The notes beneath the pieces are model-generated. The model did no database searches. It was not told the DNA's origin and saw only the letters and a list, made by a program, of their open reading frames with translations. Both the position numbers and the translations under genes were made by a program. 64,000 nt of DNA from Virgibacillus doumboii (GTDB lineage Bacteria > Bacillota > Bacilli > Bacillales > Amphibacillaceae), in contig NZ_CADCWQ010000001.1 in NCBI RefSeq assembly GCF_902806455.1, positions 2,542,001-2,606,000 on the forward strand. Direction: 5' to 3'. How positions within the stretch are numbered: position 1 is the stretch's first letter; each line of letters starts with the position of its first letter. Shown here piece by piece: positions 26,762 to 41,375 of the stretch.

Positions 26762-27221
26762 TTCTTTAACCCCCTTGTGATTAGTATACTTACATTATTC
26801 GACAAAGGAGGTTAGTTTTCCTGCAAGAAAATTGTTAATTTTAAATAATTTTTATTATGCTGTTTTATTACCCCTTCCCCGCATATTATGCTTTACTGGT
26901 TCAACTTTAACATAACTTTCTTCATTAATATGGTGCTTATAAACAATTTAGCCGCCGAAGCTTTTTCCAGATAGGCTACCCGTCAATCCTTTGAAATGGA
27001 ACTAATAAAATCTTTCCACAACATTATTATTTCCCTTCAAATTCCAACGATAACGTAATTTTATTAGTTTTCATCAAATTCCTTCTTACTCAACAAAAAT
27101 TCCTCTTACAAAAAGGACGCCAATCCTGTTCAGGAAACGCGCTCATTTGCTTAACAATTAAAGAAAAATGAGCGCAAATCTTCCTAACCAGGATTTTGCA
27201 CCCATTTGCAGACTCTTTATT
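26762..27221. other. Non-coding stretch right of the IS607 element
   Basis: 460 bp. AT-rich, no gene. At 27118-27215 it contains a pair of GCGCTC/GCACCC motifs, the first structured elements of the island array. Confidence 0.5.
27195..27215 (+). repeat. GCGCCC-type cassette element 1
   Basis: TTTTGCACCC-ATTTGC with core GCACCC at 27200-27205, 17 bp past the stop of the 60-residue gene. A related half, GACGCC-AATCCTGTTCAGGAAA-CGCGCTC-ATTTGC, lies just left (27118-27151). Confidence 0.5.
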
Positions 27222-27404
27222 TTAATTGATTTGTCCAAAACCCCTGACTTTATTCTGCTCTTGCTCTAATTCTTTGACAGACCTTGACCTAGGGCGTTTT
27301 CCTTCCCATTGCTTTTTCGGATACTTATGTTTTTGATATTTTCTCCAGCTAACAAAAATGAAAAATGCTACTGCAAACACAACAGACAAGATGTTGCTAA
27401 TCAT
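27222..27404 (-). CDS. Small membrane protein
   Basis: 60 residues: one membrane segment (about 2-20), then a basic tail (WRKYQKHKYPKKQWEGKRPR). The ATG at 27404 follows GAGGTGA with 5-nt spacing. No known family. It is bracketed by GCGCCC-type elements on both sides. Confidence 0.6.
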   Translation of the reverse strand: MISNILSVVFAVAFFIFVSWRKYQKHKYPKKQWEGKRPRSRSVKELEQEQNKVRGFGQIN

Positions 27405-27514
27405 TACAATCACCTCACTTCTAAAATAACAAATTTTTCAGATTAATCCAATCAGTTATCGCCAAATTATAAAAATTCTTACTACTCACAACAATACAAC
27501 CTTTCTATGCGATA

Positions 27515-27560
27515 TTGACGTTATTCCTTATTAGATATTAGGGCCCGATTGTTTAATAAT
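27515..27560 (+). repeat. GCGCCC-type cassette element 2
   Basis: GACGTTATTCCTTATTAGAT then GGGCCC (27541-27546) and GATTGTTTAATAAT, directly before the stop of the 67-residue gene. Confidence 0.55.
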
Positions 27561-27756
27561 TTTTATCCAAAAGCAGAAGTAGATAACTACTTCCCAAAAG
27601 GAAAAATGCAACTTGAGTTACAACATAAACTGTAAGCTCAACTGAGGTCAGTTTTCGTTCCTTCTTGGCTTTTTTGAAATGGAAATAATAATAAATTGCA
27701 CATATAAGCAACGCTACCCCTGATACTTGGAATATTATTTCTAATAACTCAACCAA
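27553..27756 (-). CDS. Small two-segment membrane protein
   Basis: 67 residues from a TTG at 27756, chosen because AGGAGG lies 8 nt ahead; an upstream ATG at 27804 has no site. Two hydrophobic segments (about 5-25 and 42-62) flank a basic loop KKAKKERK. No known family. A GCGCCC-type element follows its stop at once. Confidence 0.55.
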   Translation of the reverse strand: MVELLEIIFQVSGVALLICAIYYYFHFKKAKKERKLTSVELTVYVVTQVAFFLLGSSYLLLLLDKNY

Positions 27757-27772
27757 AAAATCTTCCCTCCTA

Positions 27773-27976
27773 CTAATGGCCTGATTCCGCAATACGGGAC
27801 GCACAGATCCTTATTGCAGAAATGCGCCCAATCGTATTGTTTGATAAACCCGTTAATTTATCTCCTCTATCCGCACCTAAAAACGTGAATATAGCTGAAA
27901 TAATAACAAAATACGCCCAGTAGCTGTTGTTGTAAATCGCCAACACTATGCCAATAACTCCTAATAATAAAGACAT
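27773..27976 (-). CDS. Small membrane protein whose 3' end runs into a cassette element
   Basis: 67 residues: a membrane segment pair in the first 35, then a tail encoded by a GCGCCC-type element (27798-27840). The tail (RICASRIAESGH) is thus repeat-derived. The ribosome binding site is weak (GGTGATC about 12 nt off). It may be the remains of a gene truncated by element insertion. Confidence 0.35.
   Translation of the reverse strand: MSLLLGVIGIVLAIYNNSYWAYFVIISAIFTFLGADRGDKLTGLSNNTIGRISAIRICASRIAESGH
27798..27840 (+). repeat. GCGCCC-type cassette element 3
   Basis: GACGCACAGATCCTTATTG, then CAGAAAT, GCGCCC (27824-27829) and AATCGTATTGTTTGAT. Close to the element at 33703: GACGC, CTTATT, GCGCCC in the same spacing. 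Confidence 0.6.
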
Positions 27977-28289
27977 TGCTGTTAATGATCACCATTTTGT
28001 GTCTTTTAATACTGCCCAGTTCAAACATTACACCCCTATCGCTCCCGATTCCTAATTAAGTCAATTTTATTTTCGTTGATGTTTTTTACCCGTAACACTA
28101 ATAAACCAACCTAAAACGATGAGTATGTGTCCTATTGTTCCTAAAGTCCTACTAATATCTTCCCATCCCCTTTAAATCCCCCTAACTATTTTAATTAAAT
28201 TTTAACATATTTTACTAAACAATCTGGTCCAATAATGCGATTTTAGGCTCTGTCCTTTATTCCGTTCTTGCGCCCTTTTGCGGCAGAGT
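27977..28289. other. Non-coding stretch with possible gene remnant
   Basis: 313 bp. On the minus strand a short frame encoding TIGHILIVLGWFISVTGKK (about 28067-28165) looks like the end of a tiny membrane protein but has no proper start. A GCGCCC element lies at the right end. Confidence 0.4.
28248..28288 (+). repeat. GCGCCC-type cassette element 4
   Basis: GGCTCTGTCCTTTATTCCGT then TCTT, GCGCCC (28270-28275) and TTTTGCGGCAGAG, just before the stop of the 55-residue gene. Confidence 0.6.
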
Positions 28290-28457
28290 TTATTTAGCTT
28301 TGGCGTTTTTTGTGCCTACAAACATTATTAAAAAGGTATTTATACCAATTATCAGACTTATAGACAGACTTTCATTTTCTATAAGGAAGAATATTACTAT
28401 ACTGACAATTGCCGCAAACAATCCCCATATCAAGCTTGATAGTATTCTTTTGTTCAT
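28290..28457 (-). CDS. Small membrane protein
   Basis: 55 residues, two membrane segments (about 5-24 and 30-48) with a short acidic loop. The ATG at 28457 follows AAAAGGGAGAG; a longer upstream frame would run through a cassette element and is rejected. No known family. Elements lie at both ends. Confidence 0.55.
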   Translation of the reverse strand: MNKRILSSLIWGLFAAIVSIVIFFLIENESLSISLIIGINTFLIMFVGTKNAKAK

Positions 28458-28500
28458 TGCATACACTCTCCCTTTTAGATTTTGGCCCAATTCTAAAGGG

Positions 28501-28540
28501 AACACCTTAATTCGACTTTTGCGCCCGTTCGTATAGTGGA
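28501..28540 (+). repeat. GCGCCC-type cassette element 5
   Basis: AACACCTTAATTCGACTTTT, GCGCCC (28521-28526), GTTCGTATAGTGG. Confidence 0.6.
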
Positions 28541-28699
28541 AGAAACCATTTCTCATATGAACTACTTCAAATTACCGTTATAAAGTCTAATAATACTTCC
28601 CTGTCTTCCTCAAATGAAGGAGACAAATCTGGGTGTTTTTGCAATTCCCCTCGAGATGGAGGAAAAATACTGTAAAGCTTGTGTGGTTTGAACTTAAGA

Positions 28700-28736
28700 A
28701 GCGTCCTTTCAAAAGGTGTACTTTTTGAAAGATGCT
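28700..28736. repeat. Long imperfect inverted repeat
   Basis: AGCGTC-CTTTCAAAAG, a 5-nt loop, then CTTTTTGAAAG-ATGCT: about 15 pairs with one mismatch and one bulge. No T-tract, so not a plain terminator. Confidence 0.6.
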
Positions 28737-28933
28737 GTTAACAGTGCTTTTTACGTTTCATAAATACAACATAAGTTATTTTGAAATATGGCAAAAGGAT
28801 TGCAGGTAATTTGACACTGTATAAGATATTCTGAATCGAACCTTTTCGAGGGGTTGTGCAAAAATACCCAATATACGAGTAGCGATGTGCTGGGGGAAAC
28901 TCACTTAACTCTCCCCTTCAATTCTTGTTTATC

Positions 28934-29785
28934 CTACTGCTGTGTGGATATTCGATGACAACGTTGATAACAGTTAAAGTTATATGGTTGCGTGTTTTCT
29001 TCAATTTTTTTAGTTTGAAATCCATGTTCCGATAGATAGGTTAATAGAATAGACAAGTGATCAGCTGTATTTTGTCTATCATGCATAAGAATAATTGGCG
29101 TCACTCCTGCATTTACTAATTCTTCTATTTGTCCAATCACCGTATCTAAATATTGGTCACTGGATAAGGACCAATCCCTGCTGTCAACATTCCAATCCCA
29201 CAATTTAAAACCATTGCTGTCTAAAACCTCCCGATATGATTTAGTTAAATACGGAACACTGCCATAAGGTGTCCGAATCAAATTGGACCTGACTCCTGTA
29301 ATTTGTTGAAGTGTCTCCTGTGCGGTAGTTATTTCATTAAGAGCAGATTGTTCAGATTTGTAAAAGTGGTTTAAGTCGTGCGTCACACCATGTAAACCCA
29401 CAGCATGACCTTGTTCTACGATTTTGTCTACAACTTCTGGTGATTCCCTCATAGAAGGTTCCAGCATGAAAAATGTTGCTTTAGCATTGAATTGGTGTAA
29501 AGTATCTAAAATATCTATTGTTGCTGAAGTAGGACCGTCATCAAAGGTTAAATAAACAGTCTTTTCTGTATTTGAAGAAACGGATCCATTATTCGCCTCT
29601 GACTTATCTGATTTTGTTTTTCGGGAATCTGGTAAATCTTTATATTCCGGATGTAACTCAGCGCCTGGTGAATCTTTATAATCCAAATATAACTCAGCTG
29701 TTTTGTCATTAGGTTCTAAATCTTTACTACAGGCATAAAAAACAACCAAACAGCCAAGGAAAATAAATAGTATAAGCTTTTTCAT
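28934..29785 (-). CDS. Polysaccharide deacetylase lipoprotein
   Basis: 283 residues: signal peptide with lipobox FYAC (Cys about residue 19), a charged linker with two DYKDSPGAELHPEYKD-like segments, then a NodB domain (about 80-270): TFDDGPT, HGVTHDLNH, RTPYG, WDWNVDSRDW and ILMHD. Members remove acetyl groups from peptidoglycan or other glycans, metal-dependently, outside the cell. It lies downstream of an amidase and a two-component system, suggesting a wall-modification module. Confidence 0.92.
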   Translation of the reverse strand: MKKLILFIFLGCLVVFYACSKDLEPNDKTAELYLDYKDSPGAELHPEYKDLPDSRKTKSDKSEANNGSVSSNTEKTVYLTFDDGPTSATIDILDTLHQFNAKATFFMLEPSMRESPEVVDKIVEQGHAVGLHGVTHDLNHFYKSEQSALNEITTAQETLQQITGVRSNLIRTPYGSVPYLTKSYREVLDSNGFKLWDWNVDSRDWSLSSDQYLDTVIGQIEELVNAGVTPIILMHDRQNTADHLSILLTYLSEHGFQTKKIEENTQPYNFNCYQRCHRISTQQ

Positions 29786-29928
29786 AAAAAGACCTCTATT
29801 CCATTTTTTAATCTTGTAGATAGATTAATAAAATGAGATAAAGACGAAATGAAGATGAAATGGATTTGAGCTAAAGATTGGATGGCATGCTGCGCTGTAT
29901 ATTGCTGTATTGAGTTTTAGTCCTGACC

Positions 29929-30663
29929 TTAAAACACCCCATTTAAAAAGCCTTGTTCATCCGACTGTTCTTTGTATTCTTTAATCCCTTCAACAATTGA
30001 AGCTGCGACACGTGATTGAAGATCGTCCGTACGCATTTCGGATTCGTCCGAGGGATTTGTCAGGTAACCTACTTCAATCAAAGCTGCCGGCATTTCCGTA
30101 TCCCTTACGACAAACAGATCTTTCTTCTTGATTCCTCTATCCCTGAATCCGGTAGATTCAACCACGTGTTTCTGTAAAATCTGAGCAAACTGGCGGGAAT
30201 TATTGTTGTAGTAAAATGTTTCGGTGCCTGAAACACTCGGATTGGAAAACGTGTTGCCGTGAATAGATACAAAAACATCCGCATTCAGTTTATTGGCATA
30301 TTTTGGTCTGTAGCGGCTTTCCTGCGAAATAAAGCTGTCATCTGTTCTTGTCATGAAAACTTCCATTTCCGATTCCTGATCCAACAGTTTTTCCACTTTT
30401 TTTGATAAACTTAACGTAAAACTCTTTTCATATTGGCCGCTGGCGCCTGTTGCCCCGTTATCTTTACCGCCATGTCCCGGATCGATTACCACCTTAAAAG
30501 CTGTGTTTTTGTTTTCACTGTTATTACTGCTGTCCTTAGTATTATTGTTGTTGTCGGAATTGCCGGAGCAAGCCGATAAAATCAAGATTAGAAATATGAG
30601 CAATGTCACAACCAACATATTACCTATCCTGTGATTTCTCCCGTTTTTCTGTTGAAATACCAT
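29929..30663 (-). CDS. N-acetylmuramoyl-L-alanine amidase lipoprotein (Amidase_3)
   Basis: 244 residues: signal peptide with lipobox LSAC (about 29-32), a low-complexity Asn/Ser linker, then an Amidase_3 domain with IDPGHGGKDNGATG (Zn His), E of the YEKSFTL motif, SIHGNTF (Zn His) and ALIEVGYLTNPSDE (catalytic Glu). It cleaves the amide between MurNAc and L-Ala in peptidoglycan. Upstream TAAAGATTAA boxes are shared with the promoter of the response regulator gene. Confidence 0.93.
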   Translation of the reverse strand: MVFQQKNGRNHRIGNMLVVTLLIFLILILSACSGNSDNNNNTKDSSNNSENKNTAFKVVIDPGHGGKDNGATGASGQYEKSFTLSLSKKVEKLLDQESEMEVFMTRTDDSFISQESRYRPKYANKLNADVFVSIHGNTFSNPSVSGTETFYYNNNSRQFAQILQKHVVESTGFRDRGIKKKDLFVVRDTEMPAALIEVGYLTNPSDESEMRTDDLQSRVAASIVEGIKEYKEQSDEQGFLNGVF

Positions 30664-30705
30664 CTTTCATCTATCCTTTCTTTTTCAAAACATCGCTGTA
30701 CGTTT

Positions 30706-30736
30706 TAAAGATTAATAGACAGATGTAAAGATTAAG
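30706..30736. promoter_or_regulatory. Direct repeats before the amidase gene, candidate regulator boxes
   Basis: TAAAGATTAA occurs at 30706-30715 and 30726-30735, 20 bp apart on the same face of the helix. The same core occurs before the response regulator gene. Confidence 0.5.
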
Positions 30737-30810
30737 TGCAGATAAGGTCAATACCGTATAAAAATTTCGCGACTGGTAAAATCGGCTTTGCGGAGATTCC
30801 GCACAAAAAA

Positions 30811-30844
30811 AGCCATCCGTTCAAACCCATTGAACGGATGGCTT
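30811..30844 (-). terminator. Terminator of the histidine kinase gene
   Basis: AGCCATCCGTTCAA / TTGAACGGATGGCT stem followed by TTTTTT on the minus strand. Confidence 0.92.
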
Positions 30845-30850
30845 ACATTC

Positions 30851-32662
30851 TTAATAAAAATATCTACTTTTTTTATTCAAATAGAAGTAAAACAACACGC
30901 CTTCTTCTGTATTCGTTACCCCATACGCCACACCATGAAGTTCTAAAATATTTTTTGAAATAGCGAGCCCTAAGCCCGTACTTCCTTCCGAACGCCCGCG
31001 AGACGTATCACCACGATAAAAACGATCCCATATTTTCTCTAAATGTTCTTCTACAATATGAGTCCCGTTATTTTCCACACTTACTTTTACACGATCCTGC
31101 TCTTCTATCGTGGAAATTCTAATGTTTTTATTTTTCGGTGTGTAACGAATCGCATTGGTAATAAAGTTCGTAATCACTTGTTCAATCCAATGCTGATTTG
31201 CAACAACTTTTGTCCCGGATAGGTGTTTATGAACATGTAATTGCTTGTTAGCGATGTCTAAAGCTAATTGTTCGCAAATATGCTCGATAACCTGATCAAT
31301 ATAGAAGACATCCATTTCCATTTTGTACGTGCCGGATTCAAATTTTGCCAATTCGAGCATATCAACAATGAGCATATCCATTTTATCGACTTCTTTTGCC
31401 ATTGCGTTAAAATAATAATCTTTTTTATCCTTAGCGACACCATCTTCTAAAATGGAGATACAGCTCTTCAATATACTTAAAGGTGTCTTTAATTCATGTG
31501 ACAGACCGGAAATAAATTCTTTACGTGTATGTTCCAGTTGTTTTTCCTTCTCGATATCCTCCTGCAATTGATTAATATGCGAATGCAGCGTGGTCGAGAG
31601 GCTATTAATATTGTGTGATAACGCACCAATTTCATCCTTTGACCTGACAGGTATGGTCTCGGAAAAGTCCAAATTGGCAATCTTGCTTGTCGTATCGTTT
31701 ATTTGCAGCAATGGGTTGGCGATTTTTTTTGAATAATAGAAGGAAACCAGGACAATCAGGAGCAGAACAAATATAATTAAGTATACATAATAGTCTTCCA
31801 ACATTTGTACAGCTTCATCAATTGGCTGTAATGACGTCATAGAAAAAATATAAGCCATTTCACCATTCACATCTTTTATCGGTCTGATTAATATTTTGTA
31901 GTTAATATCATTTTGCTCATAGTCCATTGTTTTCGCATGGCCATTATAATTATCATTAAATAGCAGATTCACTTGAAATTGTTTGATTTGTTCGATAAAC
32001 ACACGATTTGTGTAAATAGTTGAACGTACGGATTCTGCAGGTAATTGTAATTTCTTAATTTTTCCCGTTAAATATATCCGCGACCCTCCTGCTGGTGAAG
32101 GTTCTATTTCAGCGGGTTCTGTTTTAGTGCTGTTTCCATATAACTCTTCCGACAGCAGCTTATTCTCTAATACAAAATTCGTGTTCCGTCTGGTTAAAAT
32201 GGCAGGAACTATTGTATCATCTTTCATTACCCCATCAATCATAATACGCTTTCCTTGTTCTAAATCAAACTTGACCCTTTCTAAATCTTCTAAACCGATA
32301 AAACTGTACAAAGGGATGGTAATATCGCGGTTGGCGAGCTCTTTATTCAGAGAAGTATCTGAATGAATTTTCACAGAAAAGTCATTTGTATATTTAATAT
32401 TTCCTGCACTATCCAACGTTGTAATCCACATCGAATGTTCCTGGTAGAAATCCTGCTCCAGCCTTTTAATTGCCTGTACATTTTCCCCGGCCTTCAGGTA
32501 TTCCTTCTTAAAAGATTCAATACTCGTTTTAATGTCATTTACCTTTTGGGTTGCATAATATTGCTTAAAAAATACAGTTTGTCCAATATAAATCGTTGCC
32601 AAAATGAGTATGCACAATAATGTTGTCAGCAAAAATAATTTTAATACAATGCCTTTTTTCAT
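30851..32662 (-). CDS. Sensor histidine kinase
   Basis: 603 residues: membrane segment about 9-31, a 250-residue extracytoplasmic sensor region, second membrane segment about 285-307, HAMP about 308-360, HisKA with SGLSHELKTPLS (His near 388), and HATPase with FITNAIRYTP, WDRFYRGDTSRG and STGLGLAI. Overlaps the regulator gene by 4 bp. The signal is unknown; the adjacent amidase and deacetylase suggest cell-wall stress or antimicrobial sensing. Confidence 0.92.
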   Translation of the reverse strand: MKKGIVLKLFLLTTLLCILILATIYIGQTVFFKQYYATQKVNDIKTSIESFKKEYLKAGENVQAIKRLEQDFYQEHSMWITTLDSAGNIKYTNDFSVKIHSDTSLNKELANRDITIPLYSFIGLEDLERVKFDLEQGKRIMIDGVMKDDTIVPAILTRRNTNFVLENKLLSEELYGNSTKTEPAEIEPSPAGGSRIYLTGKIKKLQLPAESVRSTIYTNRVFIEQIKQFQVNLLFNDNYNGHAKTMDYEQNDINYKILIRPIKDVNGEMAYIFSMTSLQPIDEAVQMLEDYYVYLIIFVLLLIVLVSFYYSKKIANPLLQINDTTSKIANLDFSETIPVRSKDEIGALSHNINSLSTTLHSHINQLQEDIEKEKQLEHTRKEFISGLSHELKTPLSILKSCISILEDGVAKDKKDYYFNAMAKEVDKMDMLIVDMLELAKFESGTYKMEMDVFYIDQVIEHICEQLALDIANKQLHVHKHLSGTKVVANQHWIEQVITNFITNAIRYTPKNKNIRISTIEEQDRVKVSVENNGTHIVEEHLEKIWDRFYRGDTSRGRSEGSTGLGLAISKNILELHGVAYGVTNTEEGVLFYFYLNKKSRYFY

Positions 32663-33345
32663 GTTATTCCCTCAAATTTATAGCCAGCTCGAATAACCGT
32701 GACAATACAATTTGCTTTAGTGCCTAACTTATACCGCAAATTACGGATGTGACTATTGATTGTGCGATCATCACCATCAAATTCATAGCCCCATACTTTA
32801 GTGATAAGTTGTTCCCTTGTAATAATAATCCCTTGATTTTGCATTAAATAGGTTAATATTTCAAACTCCGTGTATGTCAAAGTGATACTTTTCCCATCTA
32901 CTGTCACTGTTCGTGTAGGGAAGTGGACACAGATACCATTACTGATTAACGTATCTTCATCAGGTAACTTACCTGCCCGGGCATAGCGGCTATCAATTAA
33001 CCGTTTTACTCTTGCCAATAATATTGGCGGGCTGTATGGCTTTGTGACATAATCATCAGCACCTAATTCAAAACCTAGCAGTGTATCATCTTCATCCGCA
33101 CGTGCTGTCAACATAATAATCGCTACATTGGAAGTTTTGCGGATTTTTCTGCAAACGGACCATCCATCTAACTCCGGCAACATAATATCCAGAATAATTA
33201 AATGTACGTCATGTTCTTCAAAAATAGCTAACGCTTCATTTCCATCTACTGCTTCTAATACTTCATATCCTGCATCTAATAAATAATCCTTAACTATTTC
33301 ACGTAAAATGTCTTCATCTTCTACAATTAGTATTGTTTTTTGCAT
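32659..33345 (-). CDS. OmpR-family response regulator
   Basis: 228 residues: receiver domain with acidic pair (VEDED), phospho-acceptor Asp in LIILDIMLPELDGW, Thr in IIMLTARAD and Lys in DDYVTKPYSP; C-terminal winged helix (LTYTEFEILTYLMQNQG, DDRTINSHIRNLRYKLG). I start at ATG 33345, which follows GAGGGAG; a TTG five codons upstream is less likely. It probably controls its own operon and the downstream amidase and deacetylase genes. Confidence 0.94.
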   Translation of the reverse strand: MQKTILIVEDEDILREIVKDYLLDAGYEVLEAVDGNEALAIFEEHDVHLIILDIMLPELDGWSVCRKIRKTSNVAIIMLTARADEDDTLLGFELGADDYVTKPYSPPILLARVKRLIDSRYARAGKLPDEDTLISNGICVHFPTRTVTVDGKSITLTYTEFEILTYLMQNQGIIITREQLITKVWGYEFDGDDRTINSHIRNLRYKLGTKANCIVTVIRAGYKFEGIT

Positions 33346-33382
33346 TTGTCTCCCTCGCAATGTCTAAAAGGTTAGTACCTAT

Positions 33383-33421
33383 GAAAAGATAGCATAACGA
33401 TGTAAAGATTAGATAAAGATG
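33383..33421. promoter_or_regulatory. Direct AAAGAT boxes before the response regulator gene
   Basis: AAAAGAT at 33384, TAAAGAT at 33403 and TAAAGAT at 33414; the last two are 11 bp apart, the usual pitch of OmpR-family half-sites (TGTAAA-N5-GATAAA at 33401-33417). Likely autoregulation. Confidence 0.5.
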
Positions 33422-33540
33422 TTAACTTGATATCATTCCTGATAAACCCTATTGAGGGATCGTTGATGATTAATTGCGATACCCTACATTTAAGTTTTAC
33501 ACGAAATCGAAATTTTGGGCTAGCTCATACTTTAAATAAA

Positions 33541-33570
33541 AGCGGTTATTCAAGATAACTGGCCCTGTAA
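33541..33570 (+). repeat. GCGCCC-type cassette element 6
   Basis: AGCGGTTATTCAAGATAACT, GGCCC (33561-33565), TGTAA. Nearest relative is the element at 35330. Confidence 0.5.
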
Positions 33571-33579
33571 CAAGCTTAG

Positions 33580-33612
33580 CTTTATTTCAGATAGGCACCC
33601 TTTTCTGGAACA
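33580..33612 (+). repeat. GCGCCC-type cassette element 7
   Basis: TTTATTTCAGATAG, GCACCC (33595-33600), TTTTCTGGAACAG. Confidence 0.5.
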
Positions 33613-33702
33613 GTCGTTTTCTGTTATTAGCTGGTATAACATATCCTAAAGTACCTACAGTGGTTTTTTTTAACACATAATGGTAATTACCCCCATGCAA
33701 AA

Positions 33703-33745
33703 GACGCCTCTTATTCAAGAATGGCGCCCTATAATTAAAGATCGC
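33703..33745 (+). repeat. GCGCCC-type cassette element 8, best-formed copy
   Basis: GACGCC (33703-33708), a TCTT-ATTC-AAGA hairpin, then GGCGCCC (33723-33729). CGCC and GGCG pair outside the inner stem, giving a bulged hairpin. It ends just before the stop of the beta-lactamase-fold gene. Confidence 0.65.
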
Positions 33746-33748
33746 TTT

Positions 33749-35179: not shown

Positions 35180-35329
35180 AAAGTATACCCTTCTCTCTTT
35201 ATTGTCTTCAGATTCATTTTAAACGTTAGAGGTCGCTTCTCCACCGTACATCAGAATGGGAATTTCTACGACTTCAGACCGATATTTTGATGTAGAACCT
35301 TTATCCCATTAAATAGTCCAATCAAGAAA

Positions 35330-35366
35330 ACGGTTATTAGATTACCGCGCCCGTTTGTTTAGTACA
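35330..35366 (+). repeat. GCGCCC-type cassette element 9
   Basis: ACGGTTATTAGATTACC then GCGCCC (35347-35352) and GTTTGTTTAGTACAG. CGGT and ACCG form a stem. Lies about 90 bp past the stop of the toxin-like gene. Confidence 0.6.
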
Positions 35367-35437
35367 GGATTTCCCTGTTTCGATAAAAAATAAGCCCATC
35401 TACAATATCATCAGGGCTTTTATTGCTGCAGAAGTAT

Positions 35438-35719
35438 TTATTTTTCACCAGGAAATAATATACCGAGGACTGTGATGTTATCTTGATTTTTTTCATAATA
35501 CACCCGAAATTTCCTAACAACGATTCGAGATATACCTTTATAGGTTCCAAATTCTTCCGTATAGGTTTCTACAACAAATTCATTTTTTAAAAATTCCTCA
35601 GTATCTAAAATCAATTTAAATATGAATTCCAGAGTCTCTTCTGATGTGAAATGTTCACTCCTAAACTGTAGAAGCTTTTCCCTTACAATTGGGAGCCAGA
35701 TTATATTTTGGGTACCCAC
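35438..35719 (-). CDS. ParE/RelE-like toxin
   Basis: 93 residues with the compact beta-rich C-terminus of ParE/RelE toxins (ISRIVVRKFRVYYEKNQDNITVLGILF). The GTG start overlaps the preceding gene's TAG by one base, so it is translationally coupled to an acidic partner, the usual toxin-antitoxin arrangement. Would inhibit gyrase or cleave mRNA if active; which one cannot be told. Confidence 0.7.
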   Translation of the reverse strand: MGTQNIIWLPIVREKLLQFRSEHFTSEETLEFIFKLILDTEEFLKNEFVVETYTEEFGTYKGISRIVVRKFRVYYEKNQDNITVLGILFPGEK

Positions 35720-35985
35720 TATTCGAAATCCTTTGCAGAAAGCGAATTTAATAACTCTGAAGTTGACATACCTTTTCCTTTTTTATATTCACTTTTGCTT
35801 TCCTCGATCATCTGTTTAAGTTGAGGATTTTTTTCTACATCGGATTTGATTGAATTCTCATCCTCTTCCTGTAGTACGAGGGTAAATTTTCCTTTTCCTG
35901 GGATAGAAAATTGAAAAACTGAATTATCACGATCCATATTTTCTATGCGATTCATAAGTTCTTCTGAGGATTCAATAAATCCCAT
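35719..35985 (-). CDS. Putative antitoxin partner
   Basis: 88 residues, acidic, with a C-terminal segment (MIEESKSEYKKGKGMSTSEL) typical of antitoxins that wrap a toxin. I start at ATG 35985, 4 nt after GGTGAT; a longer frame from 36018 has no ribosome binding site. Directly upstream of, and overlapping, the toxin-like gene. It lacks a recognised DNA-binding motif. Confidence 0.65.
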   Translation of the reverse strand: MGFIESSEELMNRIENMDRDNSVFQFSIPGKGKFTLVLQEEDENSIKSDVEKNPQLKQMIEESKSEYKKGKGMSTSELLNSLSAKDFE

Positions 35986-36073
35986 AAAATCACCGCCAGT
36001 TTGTATTTTCTTTATCATAACACAATATACGTTTCCTGTATTTTAGAAGCTCACTCCGGCTGCTTAAGCAAAG

Positions 36074-36115
36074 GATCTACTTCTGCAATCGCGCCCTATA
36101 AAGGAACAAGCAACA
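36074..36115 (+). repeat. GCGCCC-type cassette element 10
   Basis: GATCTACTTCTGCAATC, GCGCCC (36091-36096), TATAAAGGAACAAGC, ending about 15 bp before the stop of the GNAT gene. Confidence 0.6.
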
Positions 36116-36129
36116 TGGATTGGATTTCT

Positions 36130-36603
36130 TTAGTTAAGGGTAAGAACAAACTCTTCAACATCTTTACCACGCGCATTTGAATACCCGATGTCTTCACCCG
36201 AAAGTGTGAAGCCACATCTTTTTAAAACCTTAAGGGATCCTTCATTGTCTTTCGCGGCACGAGCATATAGTGGACGAATTGTAACCTGTTTTAGAAATTC
36301 TCGTAATGCATTGGTTGCAATTCCCCTGCCCCAATATTCCCTTCCAATCCAATAGGTTACTTCTGGATCTCCGAACTGCTCGAAATGTGCAACATGTCCA
36401 ACTACGATGTTTTCAACAATGATCGTTTGGTTAATAATATCCCTATTCGTAAGTATTTTGTTCCAATGTTCAACGAAGCCATCCCAATCATTAGGATCCT
36501 TGCTTGTAAAGGCAGCCATTTGGTTTGCTTCACTGTCCTGCTGATGCTTAAAAAAAATAGGAAGGTCATCCTCAATCACATTCCGAAGCACTAAATTGCT
36601 CAT
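36130..36603 (-). CDS. GNAT acetyltransferase
   Basis: 157 residues, GNAT fold of the RimJ/RimL type: GHVAHFEQFGDPEVTYWIGREYWGRGIATNAL carries the acetyl-CoA pyrophosphate loop (GRGIAT, about 92-97), and ARAAKDNEGSLKVLKRCGF the second conserved helix. Transfers acetyl from acetyl-CoA to an amine; substrate unknown. ATG follows GAGGAGGAG. Small single-gene unit between two cassette elements. Confidence 0.88.
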   Translation of the reverse strand: MSNLVLRNVIEDDLPIFFKHQQDSEANQMAAFTSKDPNDWDGFVEHWNKILTNRDIINQTIIVENIVVGHVAHFEQFGDPEVTYWIGREYWGRGIATNALREFLKQVTIRPLYARAAKDNEGSLKVLKRCGFTLSGEDIGYSNARGKDVEEFVLTLN

Positions 36604-36699
36604 TAAACTCCTCCTCTGTCGTTTACTTTATTTTAGCGAACGCATATTCCTGTGGCAAAATATTTTTATCGTGTCAAACCACCTTGATATGCTACTAAT

Positions 36700-36742
36700 A
36701 ATTCATTTCCTTCTTCAATTAAATGGCCCTATTCGGGAACTA
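36700..36742 (+). repeat. GCGCCC-type cassette element 11
   Basis: TTCATTTCCTTCTTCAATTA, AAT, GGCCC (36725-36729), TATTCGGGAACTATTTT, directly before the stop of the next toxin-like gene. Confidence 0.5.
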
Positions 36743-37087
36743 TTTTTTTCGCTTCTGCTTTGAACGTGCGGGCAAAATATTAATGACATCAATCTCGTAA
36801 TCTTTTTCATAAACTGCATAAAAAATCAAATAATTTAACATTCGGTGACGGCTTTTTCCGTATGTAAGACAACGCAAACCTTCAAAAGGTCCCTGCTCAA
36901 CCATCTTTCCGGCATATGGAAAAGAAGATAACAGTCGATCGATTTCATCAATCATGTTATCTTCTTTAGTAAACCACCATTCAAGCACATCTTCTCCTTG
37001 CTCCGAAAAGAAGGCTTGGATTTGATCCAAGCTCTTGTTAAACTCTTCTGTAAAATAAACCGAGAACTTCCGGTTATCTTCTGTCAT
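36740..37087 (-). CDS. RelE/ParE-like toxin, second pair
   Basis: 115 residues with a RelE/ParE-type layout: N-terminal helical hairpin (FNKSLDQIQAFF), a core with FPYAGKMVEQGPFEGLRCL and a C-terminal strand pair ending in a basic tail (PARSKQKRKK). Its ATG overlaps the upstream gene by 14 bp and follows AAAGGAG. Activity is inferred only from fold and arrangement. Confidence 0.7.
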   Translation of the reverse strand: MTEDNRKFSVYFTEEFNKSLDQIQAFFSEQGEDVLEWWFTKEDNMIDEIDRLLSSFPYAGKMVEQGPFEGLRCLTYGKSRHRMLNYLIFYAVYEKDYEIDVINILPARSKQKRKK

Positions 37088-37337
37088 GCCGTGACTCCTT
37101 TAACTGTTCTGCGGTATAGCGTCTCATATCCGGATTGTCAAGAAAACGTTGCAGTGATTTCTTTAATTCCGGGTACTCTTCAATTTCCTGTGTCAAATTA
37201 TCGGGTTCTTCATCCAAAGAAGGTGTATCATGTGCCTCTAAAGAGATTAGTTTTCCGTCGACAACAAACATCGCTGAATTTTGATCATTCATGGCATTTG
37301 CTAGTTCTTCCTTCGCATTTTTGCTTAACGGTCTCAT
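37074..37337 (-). CDS. Putative antitoxin, second pair
   Basis: 87 residues, acidic middle (DTPSLDEEPDNLTQEIEEYP), ending in RRYTAEQLKESRHDRR. Overlaps the toxin-like gene by 14 bp. ATG follows GAGGTGA. No DNA-binding motif is obvious; the pair resembles small addiction modules that stabilise cassette arrays in other systems. Confidence 0.65.
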   Translation of the reverse strand: MRPLSKNAKEELANAMNDQNSAMFVVDGKLISLEAHDTPSLDEEPDNLTQEIEEYPELKKSLQRFLDNPDMRRYTAEQLKESRHDRR

Positions 37338-37501
37338 TATCGATCACCTCAAAAGTTACGTTTGTTATTTCCTTCTATTATAACACAGTAATGAGATTCC
37401 GGAACATCATTGCATCATTTAAACTAGGAAGATAAAAGTTTTTGAACACTCTTGCCATACATGAATATATGCGTTTTTCCCTTTGAAAAATTTGTATTCC
37501 T

Positions 37502-38344
37502 TTAAAAATATTTGCTGTAGAAATCATGTCTTAATTTCCCGCTGAGATGAGCATAAATCCTGGTTGTTTCACTCTTTTCATGACCAAGAAGGCTTTGAAT
37601 CACTTCAAGAGGAGCGCCGTTGTCTACCATGTGTGTAGCATAACTGTGACGTAATTGGTGGAGGTGAATCGTTTGTTTGATTCCAGCACGATTAGAGATA
37701 CGTTTAATAATGTATCTCAAAGTATCTACACTCATACGTCTTATGGGTTTACGCTCTGTGACAAATAAACAGGGTTCGTCATCCTCACGTTCATCTAAAT
37801 ACCTTTTTAACCAAATTGCACAGCGTATATTAAAGTAAACTTCCCTTTCCTTATCACCTTTACCATGTACTATTACTGAGTTTCCTGCGAAATTAATATC
37901 GTCTCGGTTTAATTTCGCAACTTCTCCAATCCGGCAGCCAGTCGAATAAAAAAATTCAAACAAAGCATTCTCCATCGGTGTATGACATCCTTCTCGGAGA
38001 TGTTCAATTTCATGTTCGGAAAGAAACTTTGGAATTCGCTTACCTAACTTAGGCTCTTTTAATTTTGCAGCCGGATTTTTTAAGATAAAACCTTCCTCAT
38101 GTGTCCATTTAAACAGCGACTTAATAAATCGTACTCGATGACCCAAACTAGATGGCTTTAAATGTCCCCCAGCTTCTCCCAAGTATTGTTTTAGATTTTC
38201 CGTAGTAATATCACTCATTCTGATATCTCCGAAATAACGCTGTAAAAGATCACGTTGAAAGCCATACATCTTCAAAGTAAGAGGAGAATAACCTTCAATT
38301 CTCTTATCAGACTGGTACTTTTCCCATGCTTCTGACAGCAACAT
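37502..38344 (-). CDS. Tyrosine recombinase (XerC/D-like)
   Basis: 280 residues: SAM-like core-binding domain (about 1-88) and a catalytic domain with all residues: R138 (GCRIGE), K162/K165 (GKGDKE), H229-x-x-R232 (HQLR), H255 (LLGHEK) and nucleophile Y264 (RIYAH). Apparently active. It is too short to be a large phage integrase and lies outside dif-associated context, amid an island of single-gene units with repeated structured elements, so it is the best candidate for moving them. ATG follows GGGAGTG. Confidence 0.92.
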   Translation of the reverse strand: MLLSEAWEKYQSDKRIEGYSPLTLKMYGFQRDLLQRYFGDIRMSDITTENLKQYLGEAGGHLKPSSLGHRVRFIKSLFKWTHEEGFILKNPAAKLKEPKLGKRIPKFLSEHEIEHLREGCHTPMENALFEFFYSTGCRIGEVAKLNRDDINFAGNSVIVHGKGDKEREVYFNIRCAIWLKRYLDEREDDEPCLFVTERKPIRRMSVDTLRYIIKRISNRAGIKQTIHLHQLRHSYATHMVDNGAPLEVIQSLLGHEKSETTRIYAHLSGKLRHDFYSKYF

Positions 38345-38526
38345 ATATTCACACTCCCATACTATGAATCAATTAATTTGATTCTAGTATGGTCATTGCG
38401 TGCAACCTTTATTCAACAATCGAAATGTATAACAAAATAAAAGCCTTAAGTAATAACGAAATTCTCTGTTCAGGACAGTGGACTTAACAATAGCTTGCAT
38501 TTTTAAAACAGCATGCAAATTTTATT

Positions 38527-38862
38527 CTATTTTATACCGCGCTCGGCTTCTATTTCCTTACTTAACTCAGGAAATTGTTTCTTAAACGATTTTACCATTT
38601 TTGCTGTTTTACCAAAGGTGTATTTTTTGACTTCATCATAGGGAATCCATATTTCTCTATCCCTAATCTGTTCATATAGAGATGAAATAACTGTATCACG
38701 ATGGTGTGGAGGAAGTTTTCTTGTTGTACGTATTTCCTTCATTTTTTTGTGATAAAGATTATAAAGCTCAGGAACGATCCAATTCTTTTGACTCTCTTTC
38801 AATTGTGAAAAGCGTTTGTTTGTTTGAAGAAGTTTCCCATTTACCTTTATATGATTTTTCAT
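38527..38862 (-). CDS. Basic protein of unknown function beside the recombinase
   Basis: 111 residues, basic and helical (KSFKKQFPELSKEIEAERG, KMKEIRTTRKLPPHHRDTV). I start at ATG 38862 behind GGAAGG; a TTG one codon earlier is too close. No recognised domain. It lies 182 bp upstream of the recombinase gene on the same strand and could be an accessory DNA-binding protein; that is inference from context only. Confidence 0.6.
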   Translation of the reverse strand: MKNHIKVNGKLLQTNKRFSQLKESQKNWIVPELYNLYHKKMKEIRTTRKLPPHHRDTVISSLYEQIRDREIWIPYDEVKKYTFGKTAKMVKSFKKQFPELSKEIEAERGIK

Positions 38863-38944
38863 CAAGAACCTTCCTTTAAATCTTAGCTCATAATTTTTAC
38901 TTAATTACTATTGTCTCACTTTACTAGAAAGAGAAAAAGACTCT

Positions 38945-38985
38945 CCACTTATTACATAAAAGCGCCCTTTAATTGAAGATTGTTC
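38945..38985 (+). repeat. GCGCCC-type cassette element 12
   Basis: TCCACTTATTACATAAAA, GCGCCC (38962-38967), TTTAATTGAAGATTG. Confidence 0.55.
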
Positions 38986-39104
38986 AACATACTCGAAGCT
39001 ATAGACTTGGTTATGATATGACTTATTGATCTATTCTAGTCTGTATAAAAACCACATTTAAGTAAATAATAACCCTACCTTATCATACTCAAGGAGGTTA
39101 CATA

Positions 39105-40124
39105 ATGAATGAAGGGAACATTCACCTAACATCTGCAGAAATTGGTTCACTTTGGACTGGGTATATGCAGGATAGTATGTCAAAATGTGTCTTAAGTTTT
39201 ATGTTAAAACATATTGAGGATCAAGATATAAAACCCGCTATTCAGTATGCTTATGATCTTTCATCCAATCATCTAGAACAGTTACTCACCATTTTTGAAA
39301 AGGAAAATTACGCCGTTCCAAACGGGTTTACCGAACAAGATGTAAACATAAATGCTCCGTGGCTTTTTACGGATACATTTTGTTTAACGTATGTCAATCA
39401 CATGGCAAAAGTCGGAATGATAGCATACAGCGGATTTGTCTCTATGAGTACCAGAGAAGATATGCGAAATTATTTTATACTAGCATTAAACGAAACAGCT
39501 ACGCTTTATAATCAAACAAGCGAAATTGCTCTTTCAAAAGGAATTAATGCCAGGCATCCTTATATTGAGGTTCCGAAAGAAACGGATTATGTGGACAGTA
39601 AAAAATATTTTAGTGGCTTAAATCCCTTTAGTGACAAGCGTCCACTAAACGCCGTTGAAATTTCCCATATATATATGAATATACTAACAAACGTAGTCGG
39701 GGTGAAATTATGCCTTGCCTTTGCGCAAACTTCGCCATCCAAAGATGTACAAGATTTTATGTTGCGAGGAAAAGAGATCTCGCAAAAACATATTAAGATT
39801 TTTGTTGATACACTTATGAAAGATGATATTGATGCTCCGCAGGTACCTGATACAGCTGTAAGTGATTCAACAACTCAAGCATTTTCAGATAAATTATTGA
39901 TGTATCATATGTCACTTATAAGTGCATCAGGAATCGGAAACTATGCTACTGCTGCCGCCGCCAGTCAACGAAGCGATTTAATGATCAATTATGAACGGTT
40001 ATCGTTAGAAGTTTCCCGACTTGCCAAAAGCGGAGCCGATATTATGATTAAAAACGAATGGTTAGAACAACCGCCTGGAATAAAAGATCGTAAAAAATTA
40101 GCGAAGAACAAACAAAAAGGCTGA
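39105..40124 (+). CDS. DUF3231 family protein
   Basis: 339 residues made of two similar helical halves (about 1-165 and 175-330), each with a ferritin-like four-helix pattern; matches DUF3231. Both halves start with a comparable stretch (LTSAEIGSLWTGYM and LNAVEISHIYMNIL). Soluble, function unknown; several DUF3231 proteins are spore or stress associated. ATG follows AGGAGGT. First of three rightward genes at the right end of the island. Confidence 0.85.
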   Translation: MNEGNIHLTSAEIGSLWTGYMQDSMSKCVLSFMLKHIEDQDIKPAIQYAYDLSSNHLEQLLTIFEKENYAVPNGFTEQDVNINAPWLFTDTFCLTYVNHMAKVGMIAYSGFVSMSTREDMRNYFILALNETATLYNQTSEIALSKGINARHPYIEVPKETDYVDSKKYFSGLNPFSDKRPLNAVEISHIYMNILTNVVGVKLCLAFAQTSPSKDVQDFMLRGKEISQKHIKIFVDTLMKDDIDAPQVPDTAVSDSTTQAFSDKLLMYHMSLISASGIGNYATAAAASQRSDLMINYERLSLEVSRLAKSGADIMIKNEWLEQPPGIKDRKKLAKNKQKG

Positions 40125-40198
40125 CCTTAACAAAGTTAGCCTTTTTAATTATTCAGTAAAACAATTATGATAATACAAATAAAAAGGAATTAACAACC

Positions 40199-40714
40199 AT
40201 GCACGTGGCTATTACAATTTGGGCTATTATCGCCTCATGGCGATGGTGGGATCGGGAACACTTCCACAAGTGCCATACAACAATACTGTACATGTCATTA
40301 TTGAATTTATTATATATTTTTTTGACTAGTGGTTATATATTGTGGAAGATTCAGCCTGACCTTGGACTTCCTTTCCCCATCGTCAGTATGCTGTATACGT
40401 TTATTATTTTCCCTTGCACAGTGATTTTATATTTGTCCCGTTATCCGAAGTCTGTTAAAGGCCAGATCCTTCACAACATAAAATGGATTATGATTTACAT
40501 AGTAATAGAATGTCTGGGTAGTTTATTTGGTCGTATTATTTATGATCATAACTGGCATTTAGGATGGTCACTTTTGTTTGTCCTAACCATGTTTCCTATG
40601 TTGCGTCTACATTATAAAAAGCCTCTACTTGCCTATTTTTTATCCATTTTATTTATTGCTTTTATACTTTATAAATTTGAAGTTCCTTGGAAAGTTCCAA
40701 TGAAGGATCGTTAA
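40199..40714 (+). CDS. CBO0543 family membrane protein
   Basis: 171 residues, five membrane segments, with WRWWDREHF near the N-terminus and a KPLL-YF tail, matching CBO0543-type proteins of Bacillota. Function unknown. ATG follows AAGGAATT. It ends one base before the frame of the next, related gene. Confidence 0.78.
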   Translation: MHVAITIWAIIASWRWWDREHFHKCHTTILYMSLLNLLYIFLTSGYILWKIQPDLGLPFPIVSMLYTFIIFPCTVILYLSRYPKSVKGQILHNIKWIMIYIVIECLGSLFGRIIYDHNWHLGWSLLFVLTMFPMLRLHYKKPLLAYFLSILFIAFILYKFEVPWKVPMKDR

Positions 40715-40736
40715 TATGTTGGGGGTGCAATTTTTT

Positions 40737-41219
40737 ATGACTATGGAGCAAATTATTTTAGTACTGGCGTGGGTAATCTCTATCTCTATTCTTTTAATAT
40801 TTATTCCAAAAGATAAAATTCGCAATGCCATAGTAGCATTCCAATTTAAGCAGGTATTAACATGGTTGTTTGGTCTTGCTGTTGTTCAGATGAGGATGAT
40901 TGAATATCCTGTCAGGTTGTTTGATTATGCAAGCAGGGCAAGTTTCACCTTTGAATTTCTTGCATACCCTGCAATTTGTGCCATTTTTAATGTTCACTAT
41001 CCAGAGGGAAAAAGTAAAATAGCTCAATTTGGTTACTATGCTCTTTATACTTCAGTCATTACAGTTACTGAGGTAATACTTGAAAGATATACTAATTTAA
41101 TTGTGTATATCCATTGGTCTTGGTACTGGACTTGGATAACATTATTTACAACATTCTTTTTGTCACATTTATTTTATAAATGGTTCTTTAGGAAAATAAA
41201 CACTGGACATACCAAATAA
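40737..41219 (+). CDS. CBO0543 family membrane protein, tandem paralog
   Basis: 160 residues, five membrane segments, similar in layout to the preceding protein (LIVYIHWSWYWTWI towards the end). I start at ATG 40737, behind GGGGGTG, which gives the family-like start MTMEQIILVLAW; ATG 40716 is possible. Function unknown. Probably cotranscribed with the first paralog. Confidence 0.75.
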   Translation: MTMEQIILVLAWVISISILLIFIPKDKIRNAIVAFQFKQVLTWLFGLAVVQMRMIEYPVRLFDYASRASFTFEFLAYPAICAIFNVHYPEGKSKIAQFGYYALYTSVITVTEVILERYTNLIVYIHWSWYWTWITLFTTFFLSHLFYKWFFRKINTGHTK

Positions 41220-41329
41220 ATAGAGGGACTACAGCTGTTAATTTTGTGTAGTGTAAAGTTCCATAAAAAACAAAGGGCAGAAAAATGCTACCTAATACTA
41301 CCTTCTGTTTCGTTGATAGAAACTGATTA

Positions 41330-41375
41330 CGGTTCTTTATTTGTTCCGCAATATGGCCCGTTTGTTGTATAGTCA
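41330..41375 (+). repeat. GCGCCC-type cassette element 13
   Basis: ACGGTTCTTTATTTGTTCCG, CAATAT, GGCCC (41355-41359), GTTTGTTGTATAG. Its ends match element 9 (ACGGTT... CCCGTTTGTT). Confidence 0.55.

Follow-up and report, generated by a model that had tools for sequence, protein, structure and literature searches.

Integrons are the textbook system of gene capture. Chromosomal integrons comprise arrays of cassettes in one orientation, mostly with one small gene per cassette and with precise borders, together with a tyrosine recombinase; their cargo includes GNAT acetyltransferases, toxin-antitoxin-like genes and genes of unknown function, and the arrays persist without an intact recombinase. 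Among the Xer proteins, XerA and XerH resolve chromosome dimers at one site, and pdif modules are bounded by dif-like XerC/XerD sites of about 28 bp (11-6-11). Modules of this kind in Acinetobacter carry accessory genes between short Xer-type sites and form arrays (PMC12907356), and integrons are reported with IntegronFinder 2.0 as extremely rare in Firmicutes (PMC9024848). Here, we describe a repeat element, the genes between its copies and a Xer-like tyrosine recombinase in a stretch of 64,000 nucleotides from Virgibacillus doumboii (contig NZ_CADCWQ010000001.1, positions 2,542,001 to 2,606,000), which is referred to as the window. Based on the comparison with related genomes, this locus very probably lies in an array of gene cassettes that belongs to a chromosomal system found in Bacillaceae and related Bacillales, an analogue of the integron with its own recombinase and sites instead of IntI and attC.

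All traits named above for chromosomal integrons recur in this system, and the integron-like interpretation of the original prediction, which was made from the window alone, is supported by most of the tests proposed with it (cassette borders, positional linkage, co-occurrence). Compared to the chromosomal integron, however, the recombinase is XerA-like and not IntI, the site comprises a palindromic 13-6-13 core and a second core, the element lies at the 5' end of the cassette, and the recombinase lies inside the array, being itself a cassette at least in one locus (L212). Furthermore, no attI was seen (no systematic search for one was made), and the clusters are dispersed in Bacillales. The pdif modules use the host XerCD; here, the recombinase family is apparently a separate one, the sites are direct repeats of a compound hairpin element, and the location is mainly chromosomal. 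The recombinase resembles XerA and XerH in that, among solved structures, archaeal Xer proteins are nearest to it in sequence and XerA tops the fold search by E-value; instead of one site, dozens of sites per genome bound cassettes. No published description of such a cassette system was found in the literature searched, which covered few subscription journals and no bioRxiv, and the system is apparently undescribed so far.

Altogether, sequence comparison demonstrates a compound site and arrays of it in which most cassettes contain one gene. It also demonstrates that the cassette borders are precise, that cassettes occur in different genera and that the sites are linked to the recombinase by position. 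The logic of the integron is realized here with another recombinase and another site, so that the ways in which two recombinase families came to a similar solution can be compared directly. The site is also a ready sign for locating cassettes of unknown function, and it offers a compact, orientation-controlled recombination tool for trial in Bacillus.

The element, its arrays and the cassette borders

Read on the minus strand, the full element comprises about 80 bp with the order TTRTTC-N7-GGGCGC-N7-(G/T)AATAA, an inner hairpin GGGCGC/GCGCC and a second core GGGCCA-N7-GAATAA, as seen in good copies elsewhere in the genome; shorter forms with about 10 bp less also exist. The core reads approximately 13-6-13 with GGGCGC as the centre and arms that are palindromic around it, and two sites of the window (36729 and 41359) show the core-2 centre GGGCCA without the hairpin part. 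Thirteen separate elements on one strand had been predicted for the window. All 13 core motifs exist in its sequence and all lie on the minus strand, whereas the number of elements is reduced to about 12 by merging and dropping. The cores at 33595 and 33561, listed as separate copies, are core 1 and core 2 of a single element (33543-33615), and the core at 27200 was supported neither by the covariance model nor by the weight model described below, the nearby element being 27083-27159 with its core near 27144.

Elements were located with a covariance model (CM) of 27 elements of the own genome, the structure of which was set by hand; its outer helices were later unsupported, and the model served only to locate elements. 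RNAalifold predicted no pairs in the first element alignment. In addition, a position-weight model was built from 150 elements of the CM matches in 46 loci and applied to the window with a low threshold. After removal of overlaps it gave 12 sites, all within 27144-41359 and 11 of them on the minus strand, the twelfth (36724, plus strand) overlapping the minus-strand core at 36729; the window read backward gave no match on either strand. At E ≤ 1 the CM backs the same stretch and adds one weak match just outside of it (26915-26995, 20.8 bits); the best score is 56 bits (28209-28290), and the lowest ones are 18-19 bits (41338-41374, 33665-33744). The genome contains the pattern GGGCGC-N{4,9}-GAATAA 23 times on the minus strand and not once on the plus strand, compared to 1 and 0 for the backward pattern. 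The exact consensus pattern gave no match in a search allowing two mismatches.

In the own genome, scoring of 150 out of 1279 candidates gave 60 CM matches at E ≤ 1. Contig C1 carries 56 of them on its minus strand, in the region from 2.31 to 3.17 Mb; one lies on contig C2 and three on the plus strand, two of which mirror minus-strand elements. The CM search of relatives proposed with the original prediction was run on 100 genomes including the own one: 64 match at E ≤ 0.01, many of them with one or two matches, and 35 have at least four. All 12 genomes of the own genus match, with 10 to at least 46 matches each, and four complete genomes searched deeper gave 92, 124, 32 and 27 matches. The system is widespread in soil and salt-loving relatives of Bacillus, and on this scale it could account for a large part of the turnover of small genes in Bacillaceae.

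Nearly all of the 46 loci (830,662 bases with 304 CM matches at E ≤ 0.001) were picked because they contained matches. On both strands of 47 loci, the weight model showed 539 matches compared to 2 in the loci read backward; after removal of mirror matches, 442 sites remained in 46 loci, 8 of which use both strands. In one relative (G007, L129:3223-15117), two arrays of opposite orientation meet. Between the sites, 347 intervals of 0.2-2.5 kb were obtained. The longest open reading frame (ORF) has the orientation of the site in 312 of them and the opposite one in 27, while 8 are without an ORF. Of the 312 co-oriented intervals, 246 carry a single co-oriented ORF of 50 aa or more, the main ORF in the 312 starting 93.5 bp after the site and stopping 31.5 bp before the next one (medians), which corresponds to the integron trait of single-gene cassettes in one orientation. 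The cargo was characterized with 145 proteins of 70-330 aa, drawn randomly from 352. Among the 25 of 97 Pfam families that were listed, GNAT (7), DJ-1/PfpI (6), DinB (6), glyoxalase (3) and sigma-70 (3) were among the commonest; two proteins of the sample match the 'integron-associated' Cass2, and nine defence models match one or two proteins each.

The borders of the cassettes became visible in an all-against-all comparison of 47 array loci, in which near-identical stretches occur in different contexts. At an identity of at least 95%, 97 borders that do not fall at a locus end were tested. For 51 of them, both partners have a site at the border (-15 to +25 bp); when the sites were shifted circularly 1000 times, the mean was 0.07 and the maximum 2. 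Both ends lie at sites in 14 of 46 matches, compared to 0 in the shifts. The cassettes accordingly resemble those of integrons in moving as precise units. Moreover, one occupied/empty pair was found: L131 comprises a site-to-site unit of ~0.88 kb with broken reading frames where L103 shows a single site, and the flanking neighbours are the same in both (90.5% and 84.1% identical). The expected joint movement of gene and element with borders at the sites is borne out by these data.

For a finer mapping, borders already near a site were aligned by the site at an identity of at least 85%. Cassette starts (32 pairs) showed 100% agreement from the first G of the centre (position 0) and 44% at position -1, while for the cassette ends (43 pairs) the agreement includes the whole centre and is down to 21% at position 6. 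Unequal centres occur in 5 end pairs of the 40 listed and in 2 of the 32 start pairs; in these few informative pairs, it is mostly the downstream cassette with which the centre travels, pointing to a net exchange at the left edge of the centre. Among the 29 start pairs in which both partners have a recognised centre, the second core GGGCCA is the border in four, most clearly in L026/L121 (98.5%), where a full element is opposed to a bare left arm joined to GGGCCA. As judged from these alignments, cassette borders lie at the site centre and the same cassette is found in different species, in one case across genera: L108 (G008) and L134 (G049, another genus) share 674 bp with 98.7% identity and both borders near sites. 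Since the borders fall at its first core, the element belongs to the downstream gene and not, as had been proposed, to the gene whose stop precedes it.

The border data also bear on a different origin of the elements. Being short, intergenic and hairpin-bearing and having a strand bias with replication, they could be interspersed repeats of the REP (repetitive extragenic palindrome) or IS200/IS605-like type, terminators or regulatory hairpins between genes. However, gene and element move jointly, the border of the moved unit being a site centre at either end, Rfam at gathering scores showed no match in the window, and only 8 of the 347 intervals lack an ORF of at least 40 aa, meaning that gene-free copies are not dominant. 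This explanation is scarcely credible. As a full account, an interspersed repeat, a terminator, a REP or a single-strand transposon end is ruled out by the border test.

The recombinase and its linkage to the sites

The proposed cassette recombinase of the window (37502..38344, minus strand) is a Xer-like protein of 280 aa that matches PF00589 (Phage_integrase) with 132 bits. The predicted open frame and the missing site at its stop in the window were confirmed; in some relatives, a site lies ~100 bp past the stop. An alignment of 23 sequences shows K162, H229, R232, H255 and Y264 in every row and R138 in all but one, residues which we take to be the catalytic R, K, H-x-x-R, H/W, Y set that places the protein in the tyrosine recombinase superfamily. 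These catalytic-type residues and the positional linkage of the family to the sites described below suggest that the linked recombinase catalyses the exchange.

Considering this protein, a true integron transferred into Bacillaceae, with an integrase of the IntI family that uses attC sites as folded single strands, has to be weighed. Some sources label relatives of the protein as 'site-specific tyrosine recombinase/integron integrase', and the arrays themselves resemble integrons in their single orientation, in having mostly one gene per site and in their small cargo with GNATs, DinB, glyoxalase and the two Cass2 proteins among 145; arrays with decayed or absent recombinases resemble clusters of attC sites lacking an integrase (CALINs). 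In contrast, the best family in NCBIfam was XerA_Arch with 212 bits (cut-off 220), while the integron integrase model integrase_gron reached only 91.3 bits compared to a cut-off of 265. The nearest solved structure by sequence is an archaeal Xer protein, and IntI4 aligns over residues 203-268 only. In a fold search with an AlphaFold model (predicted local distance difference test, pLDDT, of 79.9; predicted template modelling score, pTM, of 0.56), XerA was first by E-value, lambda integrase had a higher template modelling score (TM-score; 0.62 vs 0.50) and IntI4 was found at rank 12. The recombinase is not of the IntI family by these measures.

A protein search gave 1218 homologues at E ≤ 1e-30, and among the 120 listed all with an organism name are from relatives of Bacillus. 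The best relatives in the plasmid and phage collections showed identities of 64.6% and 36.5%, and one relative with 83% identity is labelled as plasmid-borne. The recombinase regions of L193 and L224, from records of Alteribacillus iranensis and Bacillus piscicola, are 99.94% identical over 1774 bp, which may reflect recent transfer or close kinship. Two further observations concern other recombinases: a tyrosine integrase of 388 aa (L026:12364-13527; C1:2912363-2913526 of the own genome) lies ~0.7 kb from an array on the opposite strand, and three adjacent tyrosine recombinase genes, presumably a Tn554-like triple, were seen at G000:C1:3205306-3207845.

Among the 100 genomes, 27 match the recombinase at E ≤ 1e-40, several of them with stops or frameshifts, and 22 of these 27 (at least 58% identity) were counted as the subfamily. 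At least four elements are present in 15 of the 22 genomes with the recombinase compared to 20 of the 78 without it (Fisher p=0.00036). Outside the own genus, the association is weaker (7/14 vs 16/74, p=0.034). The predicted co-occurrence is therefore real but partial, and it is complemented by the positional linkage. At low threshold, sites were found in 19 of 20 regions around the recombinase in relatives. In 62 named loci that encode the recombinase family, some of them fragments, 58 contain sites, with 289 matches compared to one in the backward control, and 257 of the 289 sites share the strand of the recombinase. A site lies 136-211 bp upstream in 27 of the 50 loci that keep the start region of the recombinase, compared to about one expected from the site density. 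The site centre varies with the recombinase clade (GGGCGC, GGGTGC or GGG(G/T)GC), and in the clade with 64-69% identity the recombinase is opposite to the array in 5 of 7 loci. In a divergent clade, a weak reversed site lies ~55-60 bp past the recombinase stop (L181:7759, L181:14562, L189:9568), followed by a long palindrome in the two cases shown; it is possibly a platform-like site.

A recombinase that is itself a cassette is indicated by L212, where it lies alone between a site 172 bp upstream and one 100 bp downstream. In five more loci, a site lies within 220 bp upstream and another within 800 bp downstream. In the Sutcliffiella-type loci L209, L211, L212 and L213, the homology extends from ~155-186 bp upstream to 102-120 bp downstream of the recombinase, and sites were recognised on both sides in L212, only downstream in L209, only upstream in L211 and on neither side in L213. 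On balance, a separately evolved counterpart of the integron in Bacillales is slightly favoured, in which a Xer-like and itself cassette-borne recombinase would shuffle single genes between double-core sites and start arrays without a fixed platform, giving dispersed stores of up to ~100 cassettes per genome that are exchanged between genera. The part concerning the recombinase as a cassette is weakened by the fact that a lone recombinase with clear sites on both sides was found in L212 only.

Alternatively, the cassettes could be dif-type modules moved by the host XerC and XerD, the linked recombinase being a mere passenger cassette. The arrays of gene modules between Xer sites in Acinetobacter give a precedent for this. 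The own genome encodes two further full-length recombinase candidates, which we take to be XerC and XerD, and several rich arrays occur without a recombinase of the Xer-like family. Nonetheless, the positional tie of the family to the sites, the change of the centre with the clade and the almost exclusive occurrence of direct repeats (both strands in 8 of 46 loci) argue against host recombination, and the GGGCGC core is, we assume, unlike the Bacillus dif site. This alternative is considered unlikely.

Returning to a cassette system with its own recombinase, several observations weigh against it. Of the tested borders, 46/97 are not at a site in both partners, and the border pairs are not independent, as the same cassettes recur in several loci; the longest ORF is reversed in 27 of the 347 intervals. 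In the window, the ParE-like gene pair ends 1 bp from site 36729 in comparison to L204 (87%), which shows no site there, and part of a 5-kb block ends 8 bp from site 28526 in comparison to L128 of G007 (95%), again without a site in the partner. The 62 recombinase loci are likewise not independent (L206 and L231 do not differ over 14,953 bp), four of them contain no site, and four genomes (G034, G063, G081 and G087) carry the recombinase and no element at the CM threshold. Conversely, the 20 of 78 genomes with at least four elements and no recombinase include some of the richest ones (G004, G006, G007, G017 and G049). A renewed search of ten genomes with at least 10 elements and no recombinase revealed remnants in three (G017, 82% over 73 aa; G024, 65% over 47 aa; G007, 69% over 36 aa) and none in the other seven, and therefore another recombinase may serve such genomes. 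Finally, the sites near the recombinase look ordinary, and no attI-like platform was identified, although no search was directed at one systematically.

Pairing, strand bias and the mode of exchange

Bulged hairpins had been predicted for at least two copies of the element (33703 and 35330). In a test of 335 non-redundant elements out of 439, the pairing within the own element was compared to pairing across elements (2000 permutations). The inner hairpin showed a clear own pairing with z=7.1 (0/2000) including the conserved GCGC, and with z=2.2 (33/2000) for the variable part alone. The outer attC-like stem was not significant (z=1.5, 139/2000), and the two core arms gave z=-1.2. This lack of own pairing in the outer stem and the core arms fits the determined borders, because the left arm belongs to another cassette. 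In an alignment fitted to the structure (A3), 71.7% of the cells pair compared to 70.0% after shuffling (3/500), and the covariation score exceeds all 500 shuffles, while the number of pairs with changes on both sides and that of further pair types, two of five measures, were not above the shuffles. Ordered by corrected mutual information, the best hairpin pairs take places 28 and 102 among 3240. The inner hairpin of the prediction is thereby retained with modest column covariation, whereas the outer stem is not.

The inner hairpin is shared with a true integron, but the equivalent of the R''/R' stem shows no significant own pairing, so that imperfect R''-L''/L'-R' repeats folding on one strand, as in attC, are not supported. 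Moreover, most of the element remains attached to the gene downstream of it, while the arrangement at attC is the reverse. Since two of the tested defining features of integrons, the integrase family and the outer attC stem, are not shared, the system was not classified as an integron, and an IntI-type origin is very improbable.

A further possibility is that the same cassette system and recombinase require a folded single strand for the exchange. This is suggested by the own pairing of the inner hairpin and by the strand bias. With the origin taken at dnaA and the terminus at the opposite point, 144 of 150 listed elements (of 275 matches in the four complete genomes) run with replication, compared to 135 of 198 ORFs of at least 150 aa outside cassettes in loci of the same genomes. 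The preference of the centre for the downstream cassette would also result from a one-strand exchange. On the other hand, the core arms are palindromic around the centre, exchange occurs at core 2 without a hairpin, as in L026/L121, the variable part of the hairpin pairs weakly with its best pairs at low ranks, and two of the five covariation measures do not exceed the shuffles. Exchange on a folded strand is a minority option, which we regard as doubtful and yet clearly more probable than the host-Xer or integron explanations.

For the favoured cassette system with its own recombinase, the following course can be proposed. A cassette would be delimited by the centres of two successive sites (GGGCGC, sometimes GGGCCA) and would comprise, in this order, the right core half, the small hairpin, usually the second core, typically one co-oriented gene and the left half of the next core (TTRTTC-N7). 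Excision and insertion would proceed by conservative site-specific recombination between cores, the recombinase probably acting on double-stranded 13-6-13 cores, with excised circles as presumed intermediates. The asymmetric centre would set the orientation of the cassette, and arrays would be expected to persist once the recombinase decays.

Cassettes of the window

All features described in the following lie on the minus strand unless stated otherwise. At the right end of the array, a core site with the core-2 type centre GGGCCA is located at 41341..41372 (weight model 22.8, CM 19 bits). The three rightward genes beyond the recombinase had been regarded as a misfit to the cassette orientation. 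For one of them (39105-40124), arrays of two other genomes contain relatives with ~77% identity that are likewise reversed, so that it is no exception to the cassettes. The recombinase-bearing cassette starts at the core site 38949..38980 (centre GGGCGC, weight model 35.8). It includes an ORF of 112 aa without Pfam match (38527..38865) between site and recombinase, which is conserved together with the recombinase in L170 of G011: the homology (84%) begins at site 38967, the site is present in both, and the centre of the partner is GGGTGC.

Downstream of the recombinase follow an ORF of 87 aa without Pfam match (37074..37337), by its layout a possible antitoxin partner, and a ParE-like ORF of 115 aa (36740..37087), the match of which is below the Pfam cut-off. 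The GNAT acetyltransferase gene (36130..36603) is the cargo of a mobile cassette. Compared to G007, the region from 36738 to 36091 is common (86%), and compared to G002 that from 36730 to 36087 (88%); in both cases both borders lie at sites. The left one is the core site 36711..36742 with the centre GGGCCA (CM 22.5 bits, borders in L113 and L130), meaning an exchange at core 2, and the other is the core site 36078..36109 with the centre GGGCGC, which reached 18.0 in the weight model and whose core at 36096 was not among the CM matches at E ≤ 1. Two adjoining small ORFs without Pfam match (35438..36018) are toxin-antitoxin-like by layout only.

The second cargo gene of a mobile cassette encodes a serine hydrolase (PF00144, 33749..35179). 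From 35355 to 33710, the window matches G011 with 95.5% identity, and the cassette extends from 35352 to 33729 with both borders at sites, namely the short-form element 35298..35367 (core centre 35347-35352, CM 36.1 bits) and the element 33665..33744 (core centre 33724-33729, weight model 31.9, CM 18.1 bits). The merged element 33543..33615 (CM 26.5 bits) comprises core 1 with GGGTGC at 33595-33600 and core 2 near 33560. Together with the element 28467..28541 (core centre 28521-28526, CM 29.6 bits) it borders the 5-kb block: between sites 33600 and 28526, the region from 33558 to 28886 is 95.8% identical in G011 and may be an unusually large multi-gene cassette. By appearance only, its genes encode a two-component system, an amidase and a deacetylase.

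At the left end of the array, the best element of the window is found at 28209..28290 (core centre 28270-28275, CM 56.3 bits). It is followed by the element 27762..27849 (core centre 27824-27829, CM 23.3 bits); the homology of the region from 28036 to 27837 with L112 (89%) ends at site 27829, 8 bp away, and the site of the partner is shifted by a few bases. A small ORF of 83 aa without Pfam match (27553..27804) represents the cargo between this element and the next at 27479..27561 (core centre 27541-27546, CM 49.8 bits), and the element 27083..27159 reached 29.1 bits with the CM and 22.9 with the weight model.

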